Of a stretch of 23,652 bases of DNA, positions 9,725 to 12,975 are shown piece by piece. The notes beneath the pieces are model-generated. The model was not told where the DNA came from. It was given only the letters and a program-made list of their open reading frames with translations, and made no database searches. Location: the NCBI GenBank assembly GCA_001303705.1, contig LJUI01000023.1, forward strand, positions 1 to 23,652, read 5' to 3'. Both the position numbers and the translations under genes were made by a program. This DNA is from a candidate division TA06 bacterium SM23_40. GTDB taxonomy: Bacteria > LJUI01 > SM1-40. Positions within the stretch are counted from its first letter, which is position 1. Each line of letters opens with the position of its first letter.

Positions 9725-10423
9725 ATGATCAAGGCGGTCTTCTTCGATTTCGGCGCCACTCTTATGGATGGTGAGAGCGATCGTACGGCACATCGAGAAC
9801 TCATGCGGGAAGTGGCGGAGTCGCTTGGGCTCTCCATCAGTGCTGACGAATTGCTCGTTCTCTTCGAGGGGGTGATCTTTCCTCGGGCCTCGATCCGGCC
9901 CCGGCGGTGGGTCACGACACGGCAGCTCGTGGAGGAGACGTTACCCGCGCTTCTCGGCGAGCGGTTCGGGGCCGATCTGGAGACCTGGGATTGGGATTGG
10001 TTCTGGAAGACCTATTTCGACACGCACCGCGAGCATGCGTCTCTGTTTCCTGCCGCCCGACGCACACTCGATTGGGTGAAGGCTCGGGACGTCCACCTCG
10101 GACTCATCTCTGACATCGACGACGACTATCTCTACTTCCAGATGGACACCTTCGGGATCACCGGACTATTCGATTCGATCACAACGTCGGAGGCAGTGGG
10201 GGTGGGTAAGCCGAACCCGAAGATCTTTCTCGCCGCGCTGGAGCAGGCGGGATGCAGCGGGGGCGAAGCAGTCTACGTGGGGGATTCCAGGGAAAAAGAC
10301 ATGATGGGAGCGAAGGCAGTGGGGATGATGACGATCTGGCTGGGAAGCGGCGAATGCCCTGAAGCCGACCACCAGATCGACGACATCGGATCAGTGCCCT
10401 CGATCCTCGAACCTGAACTCTAG
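9725..10423 (+). CDS. HAD-superfamily hydrolase
   Basis: A 232-residue phosphatase-type HAD protein. Motif I is FFDFGATL (nucleophile D8; the usual second Asp is Gly, as in some other HAD subfamilies). Motif II is GLISDIDDDY, motif III the Lys in VGKPNPKIF, and motif IV GDSREKDMMGA. An all-alpha cap lies between motifs I and II, as in the HAD-IA group (phosphoglycolate phosphatase / YjjG-like). The substrate is unknown. ATG 9725 starts exactly at motif I after a purine-rich GGGAAGGGCGG; an in-frame upstream extension to 9539 has no homology-like content. One base after the stop codon a tandem repeat array begins, and a second truncated copy of this gene's 3' end lies 548 bp downstream. Confidence 0.92.
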   Translation: MIKAVFFDFGATLMDGESDRTAHRELMREVAESLGLSISADELLVLFEGVIFPRASIRPRRWVTTRQLVEETLPALLGERFGADLETWDWDWFWKTYFDTHREHASLFPAARRTLDWVKARDVHLGLISDIDDDYLYFQMDTFGITGLFDSITTSEAVGVGKPNPKIFLAALEQAGCSGGEAVYVGDSREKDMMGAKAVGMMTIWLGSGECPEADHQIDDIGSVPSILEPEL

Positions 10424-10586
10424 CCCCCGGGGACGTTGGTAGGTTCAGAAGGTTACTGCGACGATCCCCCGGGGACGTTGGTAGGTTCAGAAGGTTACTG
10501 TGAACGACCCCCAGAGGACATTGGTAGGTTCAGAAGGTTACTGGGGGCGACCCCCAGAGGACATTGGTAGGTTCTGAAAGTTACTG
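10424..10586 (+). repeat. Four tandem ~42-bp repeat units
   Basis: Units start at 10424, 10466, 10508 and 10551. Each has a CCCCC lead, then GGGGACGTTGGTAGG or the variant AGAGGACATTGGTAGG, then TTCAGAAGGTTACTG, separated by ~7 variable bases. Units 1 and 2 are almost identical, as are 3 and 4, suggesting stepwise amplification. With such short gaps this is not a CRISPR array. The units share core words (GGACGT, GAAGGTTA) with the inverted copies at 10620-10835 and the degenerate copies at 12813-12975. Confidence 0.9.
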
Positions 10587-10619
10587 CGTTCGCAGCCCCC
10601 GACTGCGGGTCTCGTTCTC

Positions 10620-10835
10620 GGGGACGTACCTGGGAAATGAAGGTTATTACGTTTCGTTCGCCGGGACGTACCCGGCAAACAGGAAATGAAGGTTAATGTC
10701 CTGTTTCTGGCAGCGGTACGGAAAGCGGAAACGAGGAGAGAAGGCGTGGGGGCCCAGCCACAAAGGTGAATAACCCTCAAAACCCAGGTACGTCCCCGGA
10801 GGCGTGAATAACCTTGAAAACGCAGGTACGTCCCC
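10620..10835. repeat. Inverted REP/BIME-like repeat pair
   Basis: Two plus-orientation copies (10620-10649, GGGGACGTACCTGGGAAATG then AAGGTTATTA; and 10663-10697) face two minus-orientation copies (10766-10797 and 10804-10835, each starting GTGAATAACC and ending GGTACGTCCCC). The arms can pair over ~30 bases and enclose about 100 bp that itself contains an 8-bp stem (10677-10684 / 10699-10706). The mosaic of direct and inverted short repeats is what REP/BIME elements mobilised by RAYT transposases look like; no RAYT gene is in the window, so that origin is inferred. Confidence 0.75.
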
Positions 10836-10838
10836 GAA

Positions 10839-10971
10839 GGTTGAGGACGTGACAGGAGCGAAGGCAGTGGGGATGATAACGATCTGGCTGGGAAGCGGTG
10901 AATGCCCTGAAGCCGACTTCCGGATTGGCGGCATCGTATCAGTGCCTTCGATCCTCGAAAGCAGACTCTAA
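10839..10971 (+). pseudogene. Truncated second copy of the HAD hydrolase 3' end
   Basis: Positions 10849-10971 align without gaps to 10301-10423 of the intact HAD gene, 104 of 123 bases identical by hand count, and 61 of 63 in the core (10855-10917). The reading frame is preserved: GAKAVGMITIWLGSGECPEA, ending in an equivalent stop (TAA instead of TAG). Everything upstream of motif IV is missing and replaced by the inverted repeat mosaic, whose last unit ends at 10835. The fragment therefore cannot make a HAD enzyme. A GTG at 10849 could in theory start a 40-residue peptide. It is best read as the remnant of a tandem HAD duplication broken at the repeats. Confidence 0.85.
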
Positions 10972-10979
10972 CAGGCTTC

Positions 10980-12719
10980 TCATATCACATGGATCTCAAA
11001 CGAGGACTCGTCGGCGATGACTCCCGGGTAGATACCCACTCTCCCGATGATCGCATACGTTCCCTCTTGCGTCGCTAGCGGGATGTTGATCTCACAGTCG
11101 TAGGCGATGATCTCGCCCGACTCGAGCCCTCCGTGGATCGGGTTGTTGGGTACGTTGATGAGCCCGGCCGGGATCAGGCGCTCGGGGCCGCCCGAAGGTC
11201 TCACCATCAGCCAGAAGTCGCCGGTGACAGGCGACGCATGGAAGTTCGCAACCGTGATCGTGCAGCGAATGGTGTCGCCGGGAGGCAGGAGCGTCGGCCC
11301 GGTCGGGACGAGCTCCACGCAGACGCCAATCCGGCGTTCCCCGCGCGAGGCATAGATGTCGTAACCTCCCCAGCGGCGATAGTCCTGCCAGACGACATGT
11401 GGGGCATCCGGAGAGATGAGGGCGACGATTGGATTGTAGGCGGCGGAACCGGTCGTATCGTCGTCCACCCGTGAGTCGGGGACGGTCCAGCTGAGTCCGC
11501 CATCGGTCGAGGAAGAGAGATAGATATCCCAGTCGCCGTTTCTGTAGTCCATCCACGAGGCGCATGCGACTCCGTCCCGAGAGTAGAAGAGGCTGGGATA
11601 TGTGCCGACGCCCTGCTCGGCGTCGTTCGCCTGGCTGCTCGGCCCGAAGCTGAGTCCCCCGTCCGTAGAGGCGCTTACCCGCACCTCAGTCGGCCCTGCA
11701 AAATCATCGTTGTACCAGGCGATCAAGATTCTCCCCGTCTCATCTACCCCGATGACGCGCGATGCAACCTGCTGATAGTAGGCGCTGATATCATTCACTC
11801 TGACATTCGGTGTCCAGGAATCTCCCGCATCCGTGGAGCGAGCGAAGTAGACCTCGGGAAAACGCGACGGACCGGGCTCCCGCCAGTCGTTCCAGGTGCA
11901 GTACAGGTCGTCGAGATCGTCCGGACTGGCCCACAGGCATGACTCTCCCGCCACCGGATTGTTCCCGGTTTCGTCGCTAACGCGCACGTTCTCCGACCAG
12001 GTCGCACCGCCGTCCGTGGAGCGGGCGAAGTAGACTTGATGATAGACCCCTTCCCGCCAGTCGGTCCAGGAGACGTAGACCCGCTCCTGTCCATTGGCGG
12101 CGATTGAAGCACGCATGTAGTCGGAGGGGCTGGTGCTCGAGCCTGCCGTGTTGACCTTTACGTCCGGCGTCCACACCCACTCGCCCCCCTGGAGGATGCG
12201 GCGCGAGGAGTAGACATCCCAGACGCCGAGCCGATCGTCCTCCCACGCTGCATAGACATTTCCGTCTGCGTCGACGGCGACCGAAGGGAAGCGCGAGTAT
12301 GTTCCGGTCGTTCGGTCATCGACCAACTCGCTGGCAGACCAGGTCAATCCGCCATCTGTCGATTGAGAGAAGTAGATATGGTGCTGGCCGGTTCGGTCGT
12401 CCATCCAGACGACGTTGAGCCAGCCTTCCGGGCCGATCGCAAGCTCCGGCCAGAGATGTGTGCCGGCCGGTATGTCGTTGACGCGGACGTCGGGAGAGAA
12501 GACCCACCAGGAGAGTTCATCGATCGCCAGGATGGGATCGAACCCAGCCGGATCTCCCTCGATAGTTGTCCGGGCGCCAACGCAATCTGCTTCCCTCGAT
12601 CCCTCTGCCATCTCGAGCCTCACGGTACCTGTGGCGAGGTCATAGGCCGGCGTGATGTCGACGGCCGAGCCCGTGGCAAAGAGCAGCCATCCGATCATTC
12701 CACACTGCACCCACAACAT
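10980..12719 (-). CDS. Exported BNR/Asp-box repeat protein (sialidase-like propeller)
   Basis: A 579-residue protein with an N-terminal hydrophobic signal segment (WLLFATGSAV) and five Asp-box (SxDxGxxW-type) repeats at residues ~120, 235, 295, 351 and 404: STDGGLTW, STDGGATW, STDAGDSW, STDGGLSF, STDGGLSW. Between them AWEDDR/SWTDWR/TWNDWR/SWMDYR phrases mark repeating propeller blades. This is the sialidase/BNR beta-propeller layout, but no catalytic Arg triad or FRIP motif is evident, so a binding or structural role is as likely as glycosidase. Residues ~470-579 form an Ig-like C-terminal domain (LLPPGDTIRCTITVANF). ATG 12719 has GGAGGAGG close upstream. It lies between two clusters of the same repeat family, with its stop 8 bp past the HAD fragment. 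Confidence 0.88.
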   Translation of the reverse strand: MLWVQCGMIGWLLFATGSAVDITPAYDLATGTVRLEMAEGSREADCVGARTTIEGDPAGFDPILAIDELSWWVFSPDVRVNDIPAGTHLWPELAIGPEGWLNVVWMDDRTGQHHIYFSQSTDGGLTWSASELVDDRTTGTYSRFPSVAVDADGNVYAAWEDDRLGVWDVYSSRRILQGGEWVWTPDVKVNTAGSSTSPSDYMRASIAANGQERVYVSWTDWREGVYHQVYFARSTDGGATWSENVRVSDETGNNPVAGESCLWASPDDLDDLYCTWNDWREPGPSRFPEVYFARSTDAGDSWTPNVRVNDISAYYQQVASRVIGVDETGRILIAWYNDDFAGPTEVRVSASTDGGLSFGPSSQANDAEQGVGTYPSLFYSRDGVACASWMDYRNGDWDIYLSSSTDGGLSWTVPDSRVDDDTTGSAAYNPIVALISPDAPHVVWQDYRRWGGYDIYASRGERRIGVCVELVPTGPTLLPPGDTIRCTITVANFHASPVTGDFWLMVRPSGGPERLIPAGLINVPNNPIHGGLESGEIIAYDCEINIPLATQEGTYAIIGRVGIYPGVIADESSFEIHVI

Positions 12720-12812: not shown

Positions 12813-12975
12813 AGGGACGTTGGTAGGGATTGAAGGTTGTCTCGTGCATCGCGTTCAGGGACGCTGGTGGGAGCGGTGACGGTCTAGGCTGGTGCCAGCA
12901 GGTACAGGAGGCACCATTGAGCGTTATTCTGACCAGCACGTGAATGGCGACGTTGGTTGCCATTGAAGGTCGTGT
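12813..12975 (+). repeat. Degenerate copies of the GGGACGTTGGTAGG repeat
   Basis: Three plus-orientation copies: 12813-12840 (AGGGACGTTGGTAGGG then ATTGAAGGTTGT), 12856-12885 (AGGGACGCTGGTGGGAGCGG, decayed) and 12947-12975 (GGCGACGTTGGTTGCCATTG then AAGGTCGTG). The first two are ~43 bp apart, the same period as the array at 10424. The spacing and core words show common origin with that array. Confidence 0.75.

Follow-up and report, generated by a model that had tools for sequence, protein, structure and literature searches.

The question raised by this locus is why the 3' end of a gene should be found a second time, in a decayed form, beyond a cluster of short repeats. The gene belongs to candidate division TA06 bacterium SM23_40 and was analysed within a stretch of 23,652 bp of contig LJUI01000023.1 (hereafter the window). 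It occupies positions 9725–10423 of the forward strand, ends with TAG and encodes a protein of 232 amino acids, which Pfam and NCBIfam models place in the HAD superfamily of hydrolases (subfamily IA-like). The protein matched HAD_2 (1.1e-22) and Hydrolase (3.6e-20) in Pfam, and in NCBIfam it matched TIGR02253 at 1.4e-37, yet under the cut-off of that family, while HAD-IA v1/v3 scored over the cut-off. Only distant homologues were found, of at most 38% identity over most of the protein, with archaea and unrelated phyla predominating; the genomes listed as relatives have only the same domain in common. The nearest homologues found were mostly archaeal (Thermococcus and other Euryarchaeota, with up to 38% identity), thus the HAD gene may have been acquired by transfer. 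The window yielded no match in Rfam and no tRNA.

The second gene end is readily recognized. In the self alignment, 10301–10423 (copy 1, the 3' end of the intact gene) is matched by 10849–10971 of the same strand without gaps, at an offset of 548, with 104 of 123 positions identical and 19 different. This is the match given in the preliminary description of the locus, and its further statement that the HAD frame and the stop position are preserved in the second copy was confirmed by the ungapped alignment and by translation. The similarity is far above chance (blastn E 8e-38 in a self-comparison within 4.4 kb), and tblastn with the HAD protein picked out the fragment as another HAD tail (70% identity over residues 189–231, E 1.4e-13). 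Read in the HAD frame, copy 2 gives KVEDVTGAKAVGMITIWLGSGECPEADFRIGGIVSVPSILESRL followed by a TAA stop, where the intact gene gives REKDMMGAKAVGMMTIWLGSGECPEADHQIDDIGSVPSILEPEL. From this comparison the similarity may begin 12 bases earlier than the match above, i.e., at 10837 (possibly 10289 in copy 1), directly behind the last repeat unit; these 12 bases before 10849 agree at 7 of 12 positions (AAGGTTGAGGAC against AGGGAAAAAGAC) and are read in frame as KVED against REKD. Copy 2 (10837–10971) has neither a start codon nor the catalytic N-terminal part of the protein. The stop of a convergent gene for a BNR/Asp-box repeat protein (10980–12719, reverse strand; an ORF of 579 amino acids, Pfam BNR_2 1.2e-9) lies 8 bp beyond it. 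When the whole draft genome was searched, tblastn included, no further copies of the HAD fragment were found; a dispersed fragment lacking a HAD gene, which the preliminary description had named, for relatives, as evidence against its reading, did not turn up in a search of this genome either.

What separates the two copies is a gap of 413 bp (10424–10836), which consists of a cluster of at least seven dispersed repeats of 26 bp each. Four direct units of type 2 (GGGACGTTGGTAGGTTCAGAAGGTTA) are located at 10424–10593 on the forward strand, the first of them immediately 3' of the HAD stop codon, so that CCCCCGGGGACG directly follows the stop of copy 1. They are followed by type 1 units (GGGACGTACCTGGG...GAAGGTTA), one clear and one degenerate, at 10609–10695 of the same strand, and by two inverted type 1 units (I1 and I2) at 10766–10836 of the reverse strand, which together with the forward units give a REPIN-like inverted arrangement. 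Copy 2 starts at, or no more than 12 bp from, CCCCG of the last unit. Both ends of the duplicated stretch thus coincide with the repeat cluster within 0–12 bp. The simplest reading is one event, or a linked series of events, at the cluster by which the adjacent gene end was duplicated. We favor, with a probability of roughly 0.6, a single duplication of the HAD tail that took place locally and in association with the repeats, followed by neutral decay of copy 2. A plain tandem duplication of a gene end of about 130 bp, unrelated to the repeats, which were inserted later at the junction owing to a preference for sites behind stop codons, seems to us unlikely. By rough ORF calls, the repeat clusters of this genome lie mostly between ORFs and many of them within ~25 bp of a gene 3' end, as in other genomes (PMC3733652), which would suit such a preference; however, the fit of the repeats to the junction is almost exact at either side, and this explanation needs a second coincidence.

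The divergence between the copies gives an indication of how the second one has evolved. Paralogues that have long been kept functional are expected to differ mainly by synonymous change. Between 10289–10420 and its counterpart in copy 2, differences are found at approximately 6 of the 30 synonymous sites and 17 of the 102 non-synonymous ones (pS 0.197, pN 0.167), and over the tail (10370–10420) pS is 0.229 and pN 0.264. The excess of synonymous over non-synonymous differences expected of a paralogue that was functional before its truncation is absent from 10289–10420, and at a pS of 0.5 the probability of 6 or fewer synonymous differences at 30 sites is 0.0007. As pN is close to pS and the synonymous count is low, copy 2 has most likely been drifting neutrally for most of its existence. 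Aspartates 219 and 220 are replaced by glycine in copy 2; these aspartates are kept in 12 and 16 of 34 homologues, respectively, while glycine occurs in none. Polarising the differences by homologues gave a mixed result (V193 favors copy 2, while D219 and D220 favor copy 1), thus at most sites the changed copy cannot be named.

These values bear directly on the interpretation offered in the preliminary description, according to which copy 2 is what remains of an old tandem HAD paralogue, mostly deleted at the repeat cluster, whose motif IV region was later converted from the intact gene. That the HAD-tail duplicate is bounded by a repeat mosaic holds; the old paralogue lacks support and fits poorly with synonymous divergence as low as the non-synonymous one, unlike that of two long-functional genes, and the upstream HAD sequence of a second gene is absent. 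The preserved frame and stop of copy 2 are in its favor, and there is a precedent in the same genome, at L143, where the C-terminal domain of two tandem genes (8–490 and 2325–2798) shows 79% DNA identity and a repeat cluster lies directly 3' of the stop of the first gene. The main argument for conversion was the patchy identity of the copies, and here the counts were reproduced: 61 of 63 bases are identical in the core (10307–10369, two differences) and 14 differences fall in 10370–10423. Their strength is another matter. A scan for the emptiest 63-bp window gives P 0.0013 if the 19 base differences are treated as independent, but 0.056 for two or fewer if adjacent ones (CA/TT, CCTGA/AGCAG, TG/CA) are merged, which leaves 13 events. 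In simulations of drift in copy 2 combined with purifying selection on the core of copy 1, P was 0.06–0.23, depending on the freedom given to the tail of copy 1, with the weights of drift and constraint being assumed and the window length of 63 bp picked post hoc. With patchiness this weak, the core may have undergone gene conversion, but the data do not require it; a slight sign that the core is more conserved than usual persists. Taken as a whole, an old paralogue with later conversion appears improbable to us. Under the reading of a local duplication, the quieter core would reflect constraint on copy 1 together with chance.

The repeats themselves are not confined to this locus. Cores of 26–30 bp recur across the whole draft genome (2.88 Mb in 189 contigs, 89.8% complete), and if up to 3 mismatches are allowed, the type 2 core alone is present in 82 copies, of which 50 are forward and 32 reverse, while the reversed control gave none; in viral contigs the repeat had no match. 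Such short repeats throughout so fragmented an assembly could suggest that the second tail is an assembly artefact or a strain chimera. We consider this highly improbable, as 15% of the sites are different between the two tails and the fragment starts within the gene exactly at a repeat, whereas a chimera alone makes no truncated tail.

REP and REPIN elements are high-copy, short extragenic repeats, the units of which are imperfect palindromes tagged with GTAG or a similar sequence; inverted pairs of units form a hairpin, and a RAYT gene is flanked by the repeats. The high copy number in extragenic space is shared by the repeats described here, and so is the inverted pair forming one hairpin, as the block with the inverted units I1 and I2 (10600–10860) has a strong single-stranded DNA fold (z -4.55). 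In contrast to REP units, single units at this locus are not palindromic, their folding does not exceed that of shuffled sequences (z 1.69 and -0.39), and GTAG is found within the type 2 units instead of at a stem base. At C134 (L119, 1294–2461) lies a REP-associated tyrosine transposase remnant that appears to be split across two ORFs; it is the sole Y1_Tnp match in the draft genome, with 22.3 bits versus a cut-off of 23, and it matches NF047646 with E 1.4e-4. No repeat units were found beside it within L119, in a genome that is incomplete. The repeats are REP/REPIN-like rather than proven REPs.

Reiteration of such repeats together with adjacent DNA has been described before. Tandem units of a REPIN plus flanking sequence are known from Pseudomonas fluorescens (Bertels and Rainey 2011, PMC3116915), and in other genomes REP clusters are reiterated along with pieces of the adjoining DNA, often less than 20 bp from gene 3' ends (PMC3733652). 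Our locus resembles tandem REPIN clusters in having short dispersed extragenic repeats near gene ends, adjacent DNA reiterated with the repeat, inverted units that form one long hairpin, and a genome with a REP-associated tyrosine transposase remnant. It differs from them in that the reiterated flank is the tail of a coding gene including its stop, the second copy has no repeat after it, single units are non-palindromic and the transposase remnant has no adjoining units.

Two other loci of the genome support a local duplication. At L124 (1508–1751), a stretch of 111 bp, in which 83 bp of non-repeat DNA are joined to a type 1 unit, is tandemly duplicated at an offset of 133 with 87% identity, and at L153 a repeat unit is duplicated together with neighbouring non-repeat DNA (79 bp, 86%, offset 1025). 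Self-comparison of 34 further repeat loci revealed no gene tail across a repeat cluster; as the present locus is the only one examined with a gene tail beyond the cluster, a single case connects such a duplication with the repeats. In this search for target duplications, L143 proved to be a genuine pair of tandem paralogues with a common C-terminal domain, and L123 and L144 were found to contain long internal tandem repeats of the coding type.

If the tail was indeed duplicated locally, a single event would have copied the last 123–135 bp of the HAD gene, and the cluster of dispersed repeats would have arrived or expanded between this gene and its convergent neighbour jointly with the duplication. 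Copy 1 would have been retained as the functional gene end, and copy 2, beside the neighbour gene, would have drifted as a pseudogene fragment. Repeats and duplication would then share one cause, a candidate for which is that the repeat cluster was processed or repaired in an error-prone manner; alternatively, the tail and a repeat may have been duplicated in tandem, with the second repeat lost later. The data do not distinguish between duplication on insertion, duplication of tail and repeat with subsequent loss, and a plain tandem duplication into which the repeats were later inserted. The product has much in common with truncated tandem gene duplicates: it is a partial 3' copy that lies downstream of the intact gene, lacks a start, keeps the frame up to the stop and has diverged neutrally. 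It differs in that a repeat cluster stands between the copy and its parent. A bolder idea, to which we assign very little probability, would be that, in this poorly sampled phylum, the non-palindromic dispersed repeats insert immediately past stop codons through target duplications of ~130 bp, one side of which restores the end of the host gene while the other is left as a spare tail.

The feature is real but minor and largely ordinary genome wear, and the reiteration of repeats with their flanks has already been published (PMC3116915, PMC3733652). It provides a small example of duplicated gene ends being found along with clusters of extragenic repeats, as well as a caution that patchy identity over ~120 bp should not be taken as gene conversion. 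Should long target duplications turn out to be a general feature of these repeats, this would have a bearing on how REP-type repeats spread, which is poorly understood. Two degenerate type 2-like sequences (12814–12839 and 12949–12973) were also observed upstream of the BNR gene, outside any cluster.
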